Part shown: positions 26 to 5,850 of the stretch, one piece after another
Layout of the letters: each line of letters opens with the position of its first letter
Position numbering within the stretch: position 1 is the stretch's first letter
Source: an uncultured Eubacteriales bacterium
GTDB lineage: Bacteria; Bacillota_A; Clostridia; Saccharofermentanales; Saccharofermentanaceae
NCBI GenBank assembly: GCA_900313405.1
Contig: OMQY01000078.1
Span: forward strand, 1 to 5,850
DNA length: 5,850 nt
Reading direction: 5' to 3'
Program-made: the position numbers and the translations under genes
Notes under the pieces: model-generated
What the model was told of the DNA's origin: nothing
Database searches by the model: none
Seen by the model: only the letters and a program-made list of their open reading frames with translations

Positions 26-1120
26 CTACAATAAAGTAATTCCTTCTACACACATGATCGCTATTCCGCCAACTATCAACATAAGCGGCAGTCCGTCAGC
101 CGGAGCAGGCCTTTCCGAGAAGATACTGCGTCTCTTATATGTCGTCAGATAACCGGTAGCGATAATGTCAGCCATTATCACTGCCAAGACATAGAAAACA
201 AGTAATAGCGCTGTCTTTACTCCATGCGATCCGAGTCTGTCATTCTTGATAAAAGGCAACGATATCATCGCTGCGGCAGCGATCGCTTCATAGATACAAT
301 ACTTTCCGGATCTGCCACCATCCCGGGACAAAAACTTTTCCGTTCCAAAAGCAACTAATGTCATCACTGCGAGTACAAAGAGCGGAATGATAAGCAGCAT
401 TCTGTCGTTATCATCCAAATATATATCATACAGTTTACGGCCGCCGTATGCCGCTGCCAGAGCCGGGATCATCCCGATCGCAAAGAAAAGCCTTGCAAGA
501 AGGAATCCGCGGACATTCTCCATAGATGCCGAGGGCATTACCGTGTAATCTCCTAACGCAGGGGATGAGAAGGACACTTTCCTTCCGGTCGAATAAGATC
601 CTAATGCTGCCATGAGTATCAATGTCAAAGCAGACACAATAACAGCAACTGATGTTATCTTACGATCTGCCGGAACACATACTGCGGCGGCAGGGGCGAG
701 AGACGCAAGCGATAAAGCAACAGGAATGATCAACTCTTTTACGGGATCAATGCGTCCGGATCCGGTCTCTTCATCACCCGTTTCTGAACCGAGAGCCGTA
801 AGTCCTGCAGCCAGTGGCATAAGATAGATATATTCACCCGGATCGACATCAGCATCAAGCATCTTGGCTGCAAATAAGCATATAAAGACAACAAGTACAT
901 TAACGAACATGTTAAGATGCTTCGTTGAAGTCCTCTGCCAGAAGATCATTATTCCTGCCCATACTGCCAGCTGAGCAACGACACAGAGCGACATTGTAAG
1001 GATATCTTCACTTCGTGTTATCAGAGCTGCGCCTGTGGCGATCAGTCCTGCCAGAAATACAGATGAACGAGCCGACAGACTGATGTTCTCTTCATTCTTT
1101 GTGACCGCGGTCTTCTTCAC
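26..1120 (-). CDS. Polytopic membrane protein, probable divergent RnfE-RnfA fusion lacking the cluster cysteines
   Basis: 364 residues with about ten to twelve hydrophobic helices (roughly 20-37, 43-61, 70-88, 96-111, 128-148, 155-175, 203-224, 240-258, 274-292, 301-325, 343-362). No obvious family at first sight. Read against RnfE and RnfA, which are homologous six-helix proteins of about 200 residues, the N-half follows RnfE: AGLIATGAALITRSEDILTM (24-43) for lGLCPaLAVTts.enaLgM, and YLMPLAAGLTALGSE (99-113) for fIPLIvvNCiILGRAE. The C-half follows RnfA: ARLFFAIGMIPAL (209-221) for sRFLGICPFLG, ISLPFIKND (286-294) for iyLPLItTNC, and PADGLPLMLIVGGIAIMCVEG (340-360, near the C-terminus) for the family end FkGFPIALItAGlmaLaF.GF. 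It sits where rnfE and rnfA follow rnfG. The cysteines that hold the membrane [2Fe-2S] cluster are absent. Start is GTG at 1118-1120, chosen for the AAAGGAGG six bases upstream; stop TAG at 26-28. Alternative: an unrelated membrane protein recruited to the operon. Confidence 0.6.
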   Translation of the reverse strand: MKKTAVTKNEENISLSARSSVFLAGLIATGAALITRSEDILTMSLCVVAQLAVWAGIMIFWQRTSTKHLNMFVNVLVVFICLFAAKMLDADVDPGEYIYLMPLAAGLTALGSETGDEETGSGRIDPVKELIIPVALSLASLAPAAAVCVPADRKITSVAVIVSALTLILMAALGSYSTGRKVSFSSPALGDYTVMPSASMENVRGFLLARLFFAIGMIPALAAAYGGRKLYDIYLDDNDRMLLIIPLFVLAVMTLVAFGTEKFLSRDGGRSGKYCIYEAIAAAAMISLPFIKNDRLGSHGVKTALLLVFYVLAVIMADIIATGYLTTYKRRSIFSERPAPADGLPLMLIVGGIAIMCVEGITLL

Positions 1121-1126
1121 TTGTTG

Positions 1127-1134
1127 CCTCCTTT
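1127..1134 (-). promoter_or_regulatory. Strong Shine-Dalgarno (AAAGGAGG) deciding a GTG start
   Basis: AAAGGAGG on the minus strand lies six bases before the GTG at 1118-1120 that starts the polytopic membrane protein. It is the only clear gap in the operon (31 bases, 1121-1151) and the strongest ribosome binding site in the window, so this last gene probably initiates independently rather than by coupling. No hairpin or promoter is visible in the gap. Confidence 0.85.
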
Positions 1135-1151
1135 CGATGATGATAACGGCC

Positions 1152-2537
1152 TTAAGCGAGCCAGTTCAGATACTGCTTCAGGAACTTATATCCCGTATTA
1201 AGCGCTGACAATACTTCGAGCGATGCAGCCTCGTTATTATCGATCCCCTCTATGTAAGTGATTATCTCTGTCATCGGGATCCCGTCTATACTGTCAGTAA
1301 TGACGCTGTTAGTCCTGCCGTTGACCACACCGTCCTCAGTACCGTCGTAATACTGAGCAGGCGCAGAAGGCTCTTCTGTCTCATATGTCTCATCCGTCCC
1401 CGTCTCGTCTGAACCGGGCAGATCATCCAAAACTATAGGTGTTCCGTTCTCATCATCGGATCCCTCAGCGCTATAGTACTCAACGTATTCCCTGATATTG
1501 AGTTCACCGATCTCATTGCCGTTATTGTCGTAGACCTTAAAGTAGTTGGGATATTCATCGAAAGAATACACAACAAAGCCGTCATCATTTACGAGTCCGA
1601 GTTCTTCAGCGCCGGATCCGAACAATCTGGTAAAGGCCAGATCCATTCCTTCGTAATAGTCATTTTTGGTAAAACCCGCCCTGGAACTGTCGATGCACTC
1701 ATAAGCCAGTTCAACGAAGCTTCGAATGTTGACGGTAACTCCTTCAACGATCTCTGTAGTTCCGTCAGACTTCATCGCCAGCCTTGCGGGATCCTGAAGA
1801 TTGATAAGTGCATGGCAGAGGTTGTACGACTGTGTCGCCCAGTTCTCTCCCGATATGGTATATGCTCCGGTAAGTGAAGCCTCACGTCTGTTGGGTGTCG
1901 TAGGATCGATATTGAATGCGTCCCATTGAACACGGGTGATGATCCCGTCAATTACATCTATCTCGACATAATCTATATAGCCTTTACGATCCGCGAACTG
2001 ACGCTGTGCATAGTACGTACCGTCACGCAGTCCTCCGAGTCTGATCACGGTATCATCTGTCTCTGTCAAAGAACTGTACTGTGAATTCAAGGCGATCGGT
2101 ATCCTTTTTCCCATAACCTGCTTGAGGATCTCATCCAGTTCCTCATCCGTTATTGAGATCGGATCGGTCTCGTCATTGACCCGTCTTATGCCTGTCACGA
2201 CAGCACCGTCAGCTTTAATACCTTCGAGAAGATGAAGCTTCTTACCGTTCTTGTCAGTCACCGTGACGTCGATGATATACCCGGTCTCTACTCCGTCCTC
2301 GTCATAAGCAACATACACATGAGATATATCGGCGAAAAGTTCCATCTCCGAGGGATGGACCTCCTGATAATCAGCGGCCGGAAGAACATTCTTGAACTCC
2401 TCCGAATATTCGCTCTGCTGTCTGTCATCCGCCTTGTTCCCCGCCATCCATTCTCCGATCGAGAGCACGACGACGCTGATGATCGCGATAACGATCAACT
2501 CGAACATCATCCTACGAAGCAACTGACGGGTCATCAT
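1152..2537 (-). CDS. rnfG: RnfG-like membrane-anchored protein with FMN-binding-type domain and degenerate flavinylation sites
   Basis: Position (after rnfD) and architecture point to the RnfG slot, the extracytoplasmic covalent-flavin subunit. The protein has 461 residues, about twice the usual RnfG length. An N-terminal signal-anchor helix occupies about 11-28. Residues 71-125 resemble the RnfG N-terminal half (GYIIDVTVTDKNGKKLHLLE, then GIKADGAVVTGI and NDETDP where RnfG has h.ETPG). Residues 168-285 look like a second FMN_bind-type module: LRDGTYYAQRQF, VEIDVIDGIITRVQWDAFN, then EIVEGVTVNI at 262-271 at the place of DxxSGATxS. An acidic, low-complexity linker runs about 353-395. The C-terminus (TDSIDGIPMTEI 414-425, then SALNTGYKFLKQYL) resembles the RnfG end with its SGAT site, but the acceptor position is Pro421. 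Start: the first of two adjacent ATGs, overlapping the rnfD stop as ATGA; AGGAGG lies 11 bases upstream. Symbol given for position and family resemblance; flavin binding is not certain. Confidence 0.72.
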   Translation of the reverse strand: MMTRQLLRRMMFELIVIAIISVVVLSIGEWMAGNKADDRQQSEYSEEFKNVLPAADYQEVHPSEMELFADISHVYVAYDEDGVETGYIIDVTVTDKNGKKLHLLEGIKADGAVVTGIRRVNDETDPISITDEELDEILKQVMGKRIPIALNSQYSSLTETDDTVIRLGGLRDGTYYAQRQFADRKGYIDYVEIDVIDGIITRVQWDAFNIDPTTPNRREASLTGAYTISGENWATQSYNLCHALINLQDPARLAMKSDGTTEIVEGVTVNIRSFVELAYECIDSSRAGFTKNDYYEGMDLAFTRLFGSGAEELGLVNDDGFVVYSFDEYPNYFKVYDNNGNEIGELNIREYVEYYSAEGSDDENGTPIVLDDLPGSDETGTDETYETEEPSAPAQYYDGTEDGVVNGRTNSVITDSIDGIPMTEIITYIEGIDNNEAASLEVLSALNTGYKFLKQYLNWLA

Positions 2538-3496
2538 ATGCGCAATTTCCTCCTGCTCCTTACAGATGATATAACAAACTCAAGTGTGTAAGTCAGGTAA
2601 TTTGTCATGATTACCGGAACCGTCAGATACACTATATTCGAAGTAAAACGGCTGAGGACCACCGTCATAAGTCCCGCAAAGCATCCCGAGATGATCCCTC
2701 CGGACAATCCCTGAGAAACACATATATAGTCGGTTATCATAAAGGCTGCCGCAAAGAGCACACCTGACGTCACCATAAACACGAGCAATTCTCTCTGCCC
2801 GTCAGATTTGAGCACATCGACCTTATAAAGAATACAATACCCGATCAATACCGTCGCCAGATACGCGGCAGGGGCCTCGATACGAACTATCCTCTTGGAG
2901 ACCAGATAAACGATACCGATCAGTATCATCAGACAGCAGCCCGTGCCGAATCTGCCGGCATAGCTTCCCGTCAGGATCTCGGTAATGTAAAGATCATCAA
3001 GTACAGCGGGCTGATCTCCGCTTACATGCAGTGTGAACAATCCGTCCAGTCCCAGCCGGTCCTTATAAGGCTCGATATATCCGTTCTCGATATCCTCGAA
3101 AAGCAGATTGATAAAAAGAGCCGAAGCCGCCGCCATATTCACGGGATTACCGCCTAATCCTCCGAACAGCTGCTTAAAAGCCAGTTCACCGATAAGGATT
3201 CCGAGTATCGATATGATAAGAGGGGTCCCGGGCGGGAGAAGCAATGCATAAATGATACCGCTTACCATGGCACTGATGTCATAGTATTCAACCGCAGCTA
3301 CTCCCCTCAGCCTGTCACATATCCTTGCCGTAACAAGCGAGAGCATAGCACACGCAGCCATGGTAACCGCAGCTCTGATCCCGTAACAGAATACCGAGTA
3401 AAGTGCACAGGGCAATACTGCAGCCATCATATTGGTATATATGTACGGAGTATTCAGATCCGTATGTATATAGGGCGCATTACTTCGAAGGATCAT
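2534..3496 (-). CDS. rnfD: RnfD-like integral membrane subunit lacking the flavin-attachment SGAT motif
   Basis: Polytopic membrane subunit of the RnfD/NqrB family, 320 residues, roughly the usual RnfD length. Family signatures: SNAPYIHTDLNTPYIYTNMM at 5-24 (SPHI...-like start), DISAMVSGIIYALLLPPGTP at 73-92 (consensus DGSA.VTG..LAL.LPP), KQLFGGLGGNPVNMAAA at 108-124 (KhlFGGLG.NPFNPA), the helix GIVYLVSKRIVRIEAPAAYL at 194-213, and FMITDYI at 252-258 (F.MATDP). About eight to ten hydrophobic helices. Canonical RnfD carries FMN on the Thr of an SGAT motif in the loop before the GETS block; here that loop reads LHVSGDQPAVLDD (156-168), with no Thr, and the GETS block reads FGTGCC (183-188). Start ATG lies inside the rnfC stop (ATGA), preceded by AAGGGGG about 9 bases upstream; its own TGA overlaps the next start the same way. 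Membership is clear; loss of covalent FMN is inferred from the missing residue. Confidence 0.9.
   Translation of the reverse strand: MILRSNAPYIHTDLNTPYIYTNMMAAVLPCALYSVFCYGIRAAVTMAACAMLSLVTARICDRLRGVAAVEYYDISAMVSGIIYALLLPPGTPLIISILGILIGELAFKQLFGGLGGNPVNMAAASALFINLLFEDIENGYIEPYKDRLGLDGLFTLHVSGDQPAVLDDLYITEILTGSYAGRFGTGCCLMILIGIVYLVSKRIVRIEAPAAYLATVLIGYCILYKVDVLKSDGQRELLVFMVTSGVLFAAAFMITDYICVSQGLSGGIISGCFAGLMTVVLSRFTSNIVYLTVPVIMTNYLTYTLEFVISSVRSRRKLRI
2549..2554 (-). promoter_or_regulatory. Shine-Dalgarno (AGGAGG) of the RnfG-like gene, inside the end of rnfD
   Basis: AGGAGG on the minus strand is embedded in the last codons of rnfD, 11 bases before the ATG at 2535-2537. The spacing is a little long, but the ATGA stop/start overlap allows re-initiation by ribosomes finishing rnfD. 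A second ATG follows at once, so the start could be one codon later. Confidence 0.7.
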
Positions 3497-5025
3497 ACTT
3501 CTTTGCCCCCTTCGAACGGAAGGAAGATCTTCTCCTCGTCGCCTTCATCTCCCGCGGACTCGTCTTCACTGTACGATTCGAGCATCGACACACTGCCGAT
3601 AACGATCTTCTCAGTAGACGGGATCGATCCGTTGGTCTTAATGGATCTTCTTTCTATTCCCTCTGTCGTCTGTTTCTTCTTCTGGGCTGACACGGCATAG
3701 CCGGCTACCGTTCCGGTAAGATCCAATCCCGACGGACATACATAAGAACAGGTACCGCAAGCAATACATGCGCCGGCTCTCTCCTCATCAGCCTTGGAAA
3801 AGGCTCCTCGGCTGACGAGCTTGGCGATAAGCCCGGGATTAATGTCCATCGGACAATTCTCGGCACATTTACCGCAGTGAATGCATTTGGTCACTACTAT
3901 CTCACGTTTACGCACTACCGTTATGGCGGTAGTCGTCTTAATGATCGGAGTATTATCAGGATCGGTAACGAGAAGGCCCGTCATACATCCGCCCCATACA
4001 ACACGCGATTCCGTCTCGCTGATACCATTAACGGTATTGAGCAGTTCTGATACGGGAGTGCCTATCGGCGCAAGTACATTATGCCCGCCTCCCTCACCGT
4101 CTGAGATCGTTATCAGACGGCCTGTCAACGGCATATTGCCGCTGATGGCATCCCAGCACGCATACAATGTAGAGCAGTTGAAAAGGACAGCTCCGCATGA
4201 ATCCTCAAGGGTGTCATCCTCAGCAAGTTCCTTTCCGTAGAGTGCTCTGGCAACAAGCCTGTAATACCCCTGCGGGAACCTGTCTCTGAAGAACTTGAAC
4301 CCGATGGTGAAGTCGGGATACTCATCCGTTACTCTCTCTGACGCGGCTCTCAATGCTTCTATCTCATCCTTCTTATCAGCGGATATCAGGACCGTTATGT
4401 TATGAGTCCCGCATGCTCCTGCCACGGCAACCGCGCCCATCAAGACATAATCTGCATACTCTCCCGCAATAAACAGGTCACAGACCGCGTATGGCTCGCT
4501 CTGAAGGATGTTGACCAGCAGTTCCCTGACTCCGGCCTTACGGGCACGATCTATCTTTGCTATCGTAGGTATTCCTTCACCGCCGAGACCGACAATGCCG
4601 GAATCGCGAACGATCCCCATTACCGTTGAAGCACTGATATTGAGTTCCATTCTCGGCAATACAACGGACGGATGTCTCGTCCTCTTGCGATCGCTTTCGA
4701 TACAAACAGCTTTACACTCTACACCGTTAGGCATCCTGATCGGCTTGATGTCAGTAACGGTTCCGGATATGCCCGCATGTATCGGGACCGCGAACGCGCC
4801 CTCGGGCGGGATTCCGATACACTGACCTATGAGCACGTGCTCGCCGATAGTAACGATCGGGACGCACTCATCTCCGAAATGCTGCTTCATCGGAAGTATT
4901 ATCTTCGTAGGGAAAACACGCTCGAGCATAATCTCGCGGACAAAGGAAGAACGCCCGGAGAATCTCAAGGCGTTCCTTTCTCTCAGATTCCTAAGATAGG
5001 AATATTTATGCTCTCCGACTGACAT
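3493..5025 (-). CDS. rnfC: RnfC-like electron transport complex subunit with two [4Fe-4S] clusters
   Basis: Cytosolic, membrane-associated subunit of an Rnf-type complex; in the family it binds FMN and NAD(H) and passes electrons through two [4Fe-4S] clusters. Length 510 residues, normal to slightly long. Visible in order: an RnfC N-terminal/barrel-sandwich region about 40-110 (ILPMKQHFG, then VPIHAGISGTV); the glycine-rich nucleotide/flavin loop GLGGEGIPT at 146-154; NILQSEPY at 172-179 in place of the usual NGAECEPY; RFPQGYYRLV at 249-258; a SLBB-like segment about 300-350 with IGTPVSELL and GGCMTG; ferredoxin motifs CIHCGKCAENCP (Cys 381, 384, 387, 391) and CIACGTCSYVCP (Cys 420, 423, 426, 430). 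The N-terminal GGxHP motif typical of RnfC is not recognisable. The last 65 residues form a polar, late acidic tail (about 483-498). Start ATG overlaps the rpoD stop (TAATG), with only a weak GAGGG 12 bases upstream, which favours coupled translation. The stop overlaps rnfD (ATGA). NqrA is excluded because it lacks the ferredoxin motifs. Confidence 0.93.
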   Translation of the reverse strand: MSVGEHKYSYLRNLRERNALRFSGRSSFVREIMLERVFPTKIILPMKQHFGDECVPIVTIGEHVLIGQCIGIPPEGAFAVPIHAGISGTVTDIKPIRMPNGVECKAVCIESDRKRTRHPSVVLPRMELNISASTVMGIVRDSGIVGLGGEGIPTIAKIDRARKAGVRELLVNILQSEPYAVCDLFIAGEYADYVLMGAVAVAGACGTHNITVLISADKKDEIEALRAASERVTDEYPDFTIGFKFFRDRFPQGYYRLVARALYGKELAEDDTLEDSCGAVLFNCSTLYACWDAISGNMPLTGRLITISDGEGGGHNVLAPIGTPVSELLNTVNGISETESRVVWGGCMTGLLVTDPDNTPIIKTTTAITVVRKREIVVTKCIHCGKCAENCPMDINPGLIAKLVSRGAFSKADEERAGACIACGTCSYVCPSGLDLTGTVAGYAVSAQKKKQTTEGIERRSIKTNGSIPSTEKIVIGSVSMLESYSEDESAGDEGDEEKIFLPFEGGKEV

Positions 5026-5850
5026 TAGTCAGCATAGCCCTCAAGACGCTTGGCATCACTGGATCTGCCGAGCTTCCTGATCGCCTTGGCTTCGATCTGA
5101 CGGATACGCTCTCTTGTAACTCCGAGGCTCTTACCGACTTCCTCGAGAGTCCTCTGCTTATCATCATCAAGGCCGAATCTCAGGCGGATAACCTTGGCCT
5201 CTCTGTCAGTGAGCTTATCCAGGACCTTGATCAGGTCCTCCTTCAGAAGGTCTCTCGAGACCTCTTCATCAGGTGAGATGTACTCATCACTCGAGATAAA
5301 GTCAACCAGATGGCTGTCCTCTTCTTCACCTACAGGCTTGTCGATGGAGACAGGATCCTGGCTGATCCTCTGGATATCTCTGATCTTGTCAGAAGGCATC
5401 CCCATCTTCTCTGCCAGCTCATCGATCGTAGGCTCTCTTCCGAGATCCTGAACGAGCTGACGCTGAACTCTTGTAAGCTTGTTGATCGTCTCGACCATAT
5501 GAACAGGGATACGGATCGTTCTTGCCTGATCGGCAATAGCTCTTGTAATAGCCTGTCTGATCCACCATGTGGCATATGTACTGAACTTGAATCCCTTGGA
5601 ATAGTCGAACTTGTCTACTGCCTTGATAAGACCGATATTACCCTCCTGGATAAGATCGAGCAACGACAGACCTCTGTTCATATATTTCTTGGCGATAGAT
5701 ACGACCAGTCGGAGGTTGGACTCTACGAGGATATCCTTGGCATCCATATCGCCATCCTGCATTCTTCTGGCAAGCTCCTTCTCGTCTTCTGCCTTGAGAA
5801 GCGGGATCTTACCGATCTCCTTGAGATACATCCTGACTGAGTCATCTACG
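5025..5850 (-). CDS. rpoD: RNA polymerase primary sigma factor SigA/RpoD (partial, N-terminus outside window)
   Basis: Primary (group 1) sigma-70 factor that directs core RNA polymerase to -10/-35 promoters of housekeeping genes. The frame stays open to the right window edge, upstream of the first internal Met at 5831, reading [13 protein letters not shown], the usual start of region 1.2; region 1.1 and the true start lie outside. Counting from that internal Met: region 2 spans about 30-102, with the core-binding [19 protein letters not shown] and the -10-recognition helix [19 protein letters not shown] at 82-100; region 3 is about 110-185; region 4.2 has the helix-turn-helix [20 protein letters not shown] at 228-247, which reads the -35 box. 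All conserved blocks are intact. The C-terminus is slightly unusual (RKLGRSS where RKLRHPS is common). Its TAA stop overlaps the rnfC start by one base (TAATG), so the downstream genes probably share its mRNA. Sporulation or alternative sigma factors are unlikely given the near-perfect group 1 regions 2.4 and 4.2. Confidence 0.97.

Follow-up and report, generated by a model that had tools for sequence, protein, structure and literature searches.

A conserved rpoD-linked, Rnf-derived gene cluster in Clostridia with intact RnfC redox sites and without the ferredoxin arm or covalent-flavin motifs

The window analyzed here, a stretch of 5,850 nucleotides from contig OMQY01000078.1 of an uncultured Eubacteriales bacterium (assembly GCA_900313405.1), carries on its minus strand the 3′ end of rpoD followed by four intact open reading frames (ORFs) resembling subunits of the Rnf complex, in the order rnfC-rnfD-rnfG-(E/A-like), the last encoding a membrane protein probably descended from RnfE and RnfA. 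Rnf is usually seen as an all-or-nothing redox pump. In the window and in a large group of relatives among the Clostridia, however, the subunits on the nicotinamide adenine dinucleotide (NAD(H)) side are kept under strong selection while the ferredoxin arm, the membrane cluster and the covalent flavins have been lost, and the flavin transferase ApbE is gone from 82 of the 85 group genomes. The complex probably does some redox job other than pumping. With less than even confidence, we tentatively favor a selected, non-pumping Rnf-derived complex that would relay or report the redox state of cytosolic NAD(P)H across the membrane. The genes of the locus are as follows.

5025..5849, minus strand: 3′ part of rpoD, encoding the housekeeping sigma factor, at the head of the operon (TIGR02393, 389.8 bits)
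3493..5025, minus strand: RnfC-like protein, 510 amino acids, whose sequence retains intact sites for flavin mononucleotide (FMN) and two [4Fe-4S] clusters (TIGR01945 above cut-off; PDB RnfC match, 4.5e-54; conservation over 61 sequences)
2534..3496, minus strand: RnfD-like protein, 320 amino acids (PF03116, 2.9e-46; profile match to canonical RnfD, 2.8e-45)
1152..2537, minus strand: RnfG-like protein, 461 amino acids, with a membrane helix, a split RnfG fold and an inserted FMN_bind domain (AlphaFold2 model with mean predicted local distance difference test score [pLDDT] 81; structural alignment; 122-member alignment)
26..1120, minus strand: E/A-like multi-helix membrane protein, 364 amino acids, a probable fusion of RnfE and RnfA that lacks cluster cysteines (at this position in each of the 32 long loci; profile link via transitional members)

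The RnfC start lies in the rpoD stop codon (TAATG junction), the C-D and D-G ORF pairs each share 4 nt, and Shine-Dalgarno-like sequences can be seen. The reading frames and operon structure are intact, as a preliminary description of this DNA had stated. We inspected the locus in 50 group genomes, the 30 best-scoring and 20 picked for spread, all selected via their RnfD match, and the C-D-G order was intact in each. All 32 loci long enough for counting the rpoD and E/A flanks, likewise selected via RnfD match, have the one-strand order rpoD-C-D-G-EA. The rpoD linkage suggests constant expression of the complex. Over 12 close pairs, the ratio of nonsynonymous to synonymous substitution rates (dN/dS) lay between 0.018 and 0.065 for C, between 0.039 and 0.094 for D and between 0.045 and 0.075 for G, with 0.068 for E/A in one close pair. 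Close pairs were used because the comparison of the window with L001, the one syntenic locus found in genome_contigs, from a metagenome-assembled uncultured Clostridia bacterium (identity 82 percent in C, 68 in D, 73 in G and 51 in E/A), was saturated for C and G (D 0.086, E/A 0.22, dS at least 1.9). The simultaneous loss of several cofactor sites could point to a decaying remnant or an assembly artefact, but the constant gene order and dN/dS values of 0.018-0.094 make that extremely improbable. The proposal that the complex is selected rather than decaying is borne out further by relatives, in which the same motifs are lost (50 RnfD and 122 RnfG-like proteins), and by the lack of any RnfA/E family match among the 85 group genomes.

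Individual loci show further features of layout. RnfC and RnfD share a single 806-aa ORF, a probable fusion, in G034 (L052:4348-6768, minus strand), and two tandem rpoD-like ORFs lie ahead of the operon at L045:3274-5420 (plus strand). In L001, the nearest relative, ORFs that by eye appear integrase-like and prophage- or plasmid-like lie immediately 3′ of the operon (L001:12655-17762).

The RnfC-like protein passes the curated TIGR01945 cut-off (273.8 bits; cut-off 245.95), and its cofactor sites are conserved over a 61-sequence set in which some genomes are represented twice, by a cut and a complete copy.

4555..4599, minus strand: FMN glycine loop, residues 143-157 (GIVGLGGEGIPTIAK), aligned with canonical RnfC; Gly143, 146, 148, 149 and 151 and Lys157 in 61 of 61
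3853..3885, minus strand: first [4Fe-4S] motif, Cys381/384/387/391, in 61 of 61
3736..3768, minus strand: second [4Fe-4S] motif, Cys420/423/426/430, in 61 of 61
3502..3522, minus strand: group-specific C-terminal tail motif LPFEGGK, residues 502-508; Leu502, Pro503 and Phe504 in 61 of 61

With all eight [4Fe-4S] cysteines present in every sequence, RnfC retains, by sequence, the parts for taking electrons from NAD(P)H and splitting them through two clusters. The LPF tail motif, perhaps a docking motif, was not found in the three transitional RnfC (described below) and six canonical RnfC of the alignment.

The RnfD-like protein belongs to the PF03116 superfamily (158.6 versus 27.7 bits) and falls below the curated TIGR01946 cut-off (109.8 versus 207.05 bits). 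The positions that matter for its flavins are listed here, with numbering of Clostridium tetanomorphum RnfD for comparison.

3011..3046, minus strand: residues 151-162 (DGLFTLHVSGDQ), where the acceptor motif for covalent FMN has been lost (motif counts in 50 group versus 30 canonical proteins)
3137..3139, minus strand: Asn120, equivalent to C. tetanomorphum Asn124, adjoining riboflavin, kept (alignment)
2729..2731, minus strand: Asp256, equivalent to C. tetanomorphum Asp248, adjoining riboflavin, kept (47 of 50)
2942..2944, minus strand: Thr185 in place of C. tetanomorphum Glu185, adjoining the covalent FMN, lost (Glu in 0 of 50 group and 30 of 30 canonical proteins)

A strict motif pattern caught just 19 of the 30 canonical RnfD, and the recount used a wider one: x-x-A-T-[PSA] near the acceptor position occurs in 26 of 30 canonical and none of 50 group proteins, and Thr occupies the aligned acceptor column in 30/30 and 1/50, respectively. 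Three group RnfD match a loose pattern at other sites, among them L018 with an SAAT upstream of the acceptor region, and these were excluded as acceptor motifs. The riboflavin site is mostly kept. According to PMC9588780, Asn124 and Asp248 of C. tetanomorphum RnfD flank a non-covalent riboflavin; group proteins keep them in 40/50 and 47/50, and the window has both. The preliminary description had placed losses at every known membrane or periplasmic carrier, which holds for the covalent motifs of RnfD and RnfG and for the E/A cysteines but not for this riboflavin site. Conserved RnfD cysteines were considered as a relay and dropped, two of the positions being Cys also in canonical RnfD of the same loci (by eye).

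In the RnfG-like protein the RnfG fold is kept, as judged from the AlphaFold2 model and the structural alignment, with a score below the curated TIGR01947 cut-off (19.8 versus 102 bits).

1653..2033, minus strand: inserted FMN_bind-type domain, residues ~169-295
1734..1745, minus strand: EGVT, residues 265-268, where SGAT would be (alignment with 2kzx); Gly in 117, Val in 122 and Thr in 120 of 122
1815..1817, minus strand: Cys241 of the invariant extracytoplasmic pair, in 122/122 and 51/51 locus sequences, missing in 3/3 transitional proteins
1695..1697, minus strand: Cys281 of the same pair, in 122/122 and 51/51 locus sequences, present in 3/3 transitional proteins
1167..1250, minus strand: C-terminal RnfG segment, residues 430-457, with Glu in the window at the old acceptor position, ~436 (profile and structural alignment)

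The folded domains carry no covalent-flavin motif in 122 of 122 proteins. The pattern [ST][GAS]AT occurs in only two of them (P0056 and P0073), both times in linkers, versus 19 of 30 canonical RnfG, and a wider flavinylation pattern gives 0/122 versus 24/30. By both profile and structure, the old acceptor falls where the last helix begins, near residue 436; the profile alignment with the C-terminal tail only scores a modest 27.2, against 22.5 for the best of 20 shuffles. A conserved C-terminal DSIDG[IL]P had been a candidate for the old SGAT and was dropped on the same placement. The earlier reading of degenerate flavinylation motifs was correct in that SGAT is gone, but the Thr of the old motif survives in the inserted domain (120/122). 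RnfG has also gained an invariant extracytoplasmic cysteine pair.

The E/A-like protein of the window has no Pfam match, including to PF02508. Its 35-sequence set has no conserved cysteine column (the best reaches 18/35, and the window has Ala31 there), and a loose cysteine pattern matched 5/35 rows, which upon inspection shared no common cluster set; both cysteine motifs are found in 65 of 66 canonical RnfA/E. We consider the protein a probable RnfE-RnfA fusion by descent. A pair of transitional E/A sequences matches the RnfE profile over 160 columns with a score of 51.9, compared with at most 24.7 in 60 shuffles and 16.0 when reversed. Taken singly, L053 scores 32.6 and L055 21.9, the latter within noise; among 48 control membrane ORFs (including two E/A and two group RnfD), the highest score besides that of the L053 protein was 23.6, from a group RnfD. 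The C-terminal tail of the main-group protein, and only that tail, resembles RnfA (27.5; single membrane ORFs at most 21.0 barring L053's own), and main-group and transitional tails match each other (29.3, with 60 shuffles at most 18.1). The other explanation, that an unrelated membrane protein was recruited to an RnfCDG module, would account for the lack of any Pfam match, for the failure of the main-group profile to match RnfE and of the transitional pair to match RnfA (18.2), and for L055 alone showing no RnfE match. The AlphaFold2 model from four sequences is unusable (mean pLDDT 39), and no fold claim rests on it. Given the RnfE match of the pair and of L053 and the two tail matches, we regard recruitment as rather unlikely.

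How far these losses extend was followed across genomes. A search with the RnfG-like protein returned 135 matches; the named ones among the 120 listed come from entries for Saccharofermentans, Clostridiales, Clostridia and Ruminococcaceae. NCBI annotates them as "hypothetical protein", and three Joint Genome Institute entries carry the name "major membrane immunogen (membrane-anchored lipoprotein)". Of 391 genomes sampled from the class, 11 had a full-length RnfG-like protein, all within the known group, and 17 other matches were partial. An RnfD-type match was found in 141 of 148 genomes (that of L001 and relatives). We divided the 148 at G085/G086, where a strong rpoD-type RnfD match yields to a canonical one, giving 85 group genomes (G070 and G072 among them without an RnfD match, and the operon itself inspected in 50) and 63 outside. 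The RnfA/E family PF02508 was found in none of the 85 and in 58 of the 63. PF04060, the RnfB iron-sulfur domain, matched in 2/85 versus 57/63; both group matches lie apart from the operon in ORFs of 561 and 564 amino acids, which are not RnfB-sized, and several of the outside matches also sit in ORFs too long for RnfB. No RnfB was found in the window. ApbE was present in 3/85 (G069, G082 and G083) versus 56/63. The covalent-flavin carriers and the enzyme that attaches them were lost together.

The description of a Rnf-type locus with intact RnfC, stripped carrier motifs and no visible RnfB is therefore confirmed, and the window is no lone outlier: the long loci agree throughout, and the comparison of residues in relatives that had been proposed gave 0/50 for the RnfD acceptor motif and 0/122 for the wider RnfG pattern. 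That this is an ordinary Rnf with unusual sequences, or with motifs missed by alignment, seems very improbable. RnfC scores above its curated cut-off, C-D-G-E-A is the canonical gene order, and even the wide patterns miss 4 of 30 canonical RnfD and 6 of 30 canonical RnfG; against this stand RnfD and RnfG scores below their cut-offs, the complete absence of the wide patterns from the group, and the genome-wide loss of PF02508 and, in nearly all members, of ApbE.

The evolutionary part of the account is well supported. In an RnfD tree of 61 sequences (21 of the 50 group proteins, 37 canonical and three transitional), the group lies on one side of a branch with support 100/99 and the canonical proteins likewise at 100/100, with the three transitional proteins between them. 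The transitional sequences come from G086-G088, outside the 85 group genomes, each of which carries an rpoD-linked C-D-G in addition to a canonical operon encoding RnfC, D, G, E and A, with an RnfB-sized iron-sulfur ORF adjoining the latter. The rpoD-linked E/A is complete in two of them and truncated at the edge of the contig in G086. The G086 rpoD-linked RnfD (L057:1647-2657, minus strand) retains DTISSATP, and the other two transitional RnfD lack the motif. Because both versions coexist in G086-G088, and because one rpoD-linked RnfD still has its motif, the data fit a duplication of rnfCDGEA, linkage to rpoD and stepwise loss, although the order of these events is our inference.

Among these relatives, the ferredoxin arm was apparently lost two or more times. 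Genomes G100 and G112 have C-D-G-E-A, no PF04060 genome-wide and all four RnfA/E cluster cysteines replaced, yet they keep SGAT in RnfD as well as ApbE; the second loss is suggested because their RnfD falls within the canonical clade.

We propose that an old rnfCDGEA duplication attached to rpoD probably gave rise to the complex. Gone from it are RnfB and the [2Fe-2S] cluster of RnfA/E, which make up the ferredoxin arm, together with both covalent flavins, and because of these losses the complex would no longer act as a ferredoxin:NAD+ ion pump. The NAD(H) arm, that is, the RnfC FMN and two [4Fe-4S] clusters, would be retained beside a non-covalent riboflavin site in RnfD. In the canonical complex, the exit from the RnfC clusters is the riboflavin in RnfD (PMC9588780), and the most likely electron route here would likewise run from NAD(P)H to FMN, through the two clusters and on to riboflavin. 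Electrons might end at the membrane or move on to the extracytoplasmic RnfG-like protein, perhaps to its cysteine pair, which has arisen in a domain now lacking its flavin motif.

Several points weigh against a relay of this kind. The riboflavin residues are not universal: Asn124 is missing in 10/50 group RnfD and Asp248 in 3/50, and 18/50 lack one or more of Asn121, Asn124 and Asp248, so some members may hold no RnfD flavin even though their RnfC clusters persist. Without the covalent FMN, the distance from riboflavin to RnfG may be too great for electrons, and the cofactor sites of RnfC and RnfD are themselves predicted. Cys241 and Cys281 could form a purely structural disulfide. ApbE persists in three group genomes, one of which (G083) also has the cysteine pair, so that the pair and the loss of ApbE do not coincide exactly. 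The genome-wide absences were counted on genomes without completeness figures, and descent of the E/A-like protein from RnfE/RnfA leans mainly on the transitional L053.

Other functions may be envisioned for the same parts. RnfD and RnfG might still bind FMN or riboflavin non-covalently and transfer electrons from NAD(P)H to an acceptor outside the cell, as in two-subunit Nqr/Rnf-like systems. The RnfD subunit of those systems also lacks the acceptor Thr and has nevertheless been modelled as flavin-binding (PMC10979944); the FMN_bind fold of the RnfG-like protein is preserved with its Thr268, Arg occupies the FMN-side Arg130 position in 46/50 group RnfD (the window excepted), and the RnfC clusters call for an RnfD acceptor that takes single electrons. 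On the other hand, ApbE is nearly always missing, all 50 group RnfD lack the Glu185 next to the FMN, an unattached flavin on the outer side of the membrane would readily escape, and PF04205 (FMN_bind) matched in just 1 of 15 group genomes tested, with a model that also misses the inserted domain of the RnfG-like protein itself. We consider such loosely bound flavins unlikely, though far from negligible. A more specific and quite doubtful proposal is a transmembrane thiol system, in which RnfC and RnfD would deliver electrons from NAD(P)H to the RnfG cysteine pair as a non-pumping dithiol relay or switch co-expressed with the housekeeping sigma factor; if true, this clade would have abandoned covalent flavins, the membrane cluster and, in nearly all genomes, the flavin transferase in its favor. 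Distinctly unlikely is a redox-gated channel or transporter, in which reduced RnfC would cause RnfD to pass an ion or solute. The ammonium and urea transporters are structural relatives of RnfD (PMC9588780), and Asp248, near the proposed Na+ path, is kept in 47/50, but Glu185 of that path is missing throughout and no transporter-specific sign was found; the absence of Asn90 (0/50) carries little weight, since just 16/30 canonical proteins have it.

The complex encoded here shares with canonical Rnf (RnfABCDGE; C. tetanomorphum 7zc6, Acetobacterium woodii 9eri) the RnfC FMN and two [4Fe-4S] sites, the RnfD and RnfG folds and the order C-D-G-(E-A). It differs in lacking RnfB, the E/A cluster cysteines and the covalent acceptor motifs of RnfD and RnfG, and in having an extra FMN_bind domain within RnfG, linkage to rpoD and host genomes of which most have no ApbE. 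Already published are the two-subunit Nqr/Rnf-like systems (Meheust 2021, PMC8238504; Huang 2024, PMC10979944), which are likewise partial and have an RnfD-like protein without the conserved acceptor Thr (PMC10979944); in them a PF00175 NAD-binding domain is joined to RnfD and the RnfG is flavinylated, whereas here RnfC is separate, RnfG has no acceptor motif and a Pfam search found no PF00175 in the window RnfD. The Na+-pumping NADH:quinone reductase (Na+-NQR) has related folds (RnfD/NqrB, RnfG/NqrC and RnfA/E/NqrD/E; PMC12174285), but it has NqrF and all membrane carriers, and here RnfC bears the NAD(H) side. The FMN_bind proteins 2kzx (C. thermocellum) and 3o6u (C. perfringens) have the same fold as the inserted domain; compared with them, SGAT is here mostly [D/E/P]GVT, and two invariant cysteines have been added. 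The titles and abstract openings among the literature matches listed, with subscription literature outside their scope, contain no description of such an rpoD-linked complex.

This group makes a separate, non-pumping role of RnfC-RnfD-RnfG directly testable and offers naturally pared-down versions in which the contribution of each carrier can be studied. It also means that an rnfC or rnfD annotation in a genome is not evidence for a pump.

A second kind of variant was seen at two loci, L068:8657-9893 and L066:4675-5911, which encode Pfam-recognised RnfE and RnfA with all four cluster cysteines replaced, in genomes that keep ApbE and have no RnfB-type iron-sulfur match genome-wide, apparently through a separate loss of the ferredoxin arm. 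Their RnfG-like proteins contain tandem repeats. At L068:7578-8660 (plus strand), 8.5 copies of a 48-bp unit include eight of the ApbE-like motif DGQSGAT, and at L066:5908-6837 (minus strand), 3.3 copies of a 75-bp unit carry DG[E/A]SSAT and one similar motif, four copies in all. These repeated ApbE-like motifs possibly form a many-flavin linker.

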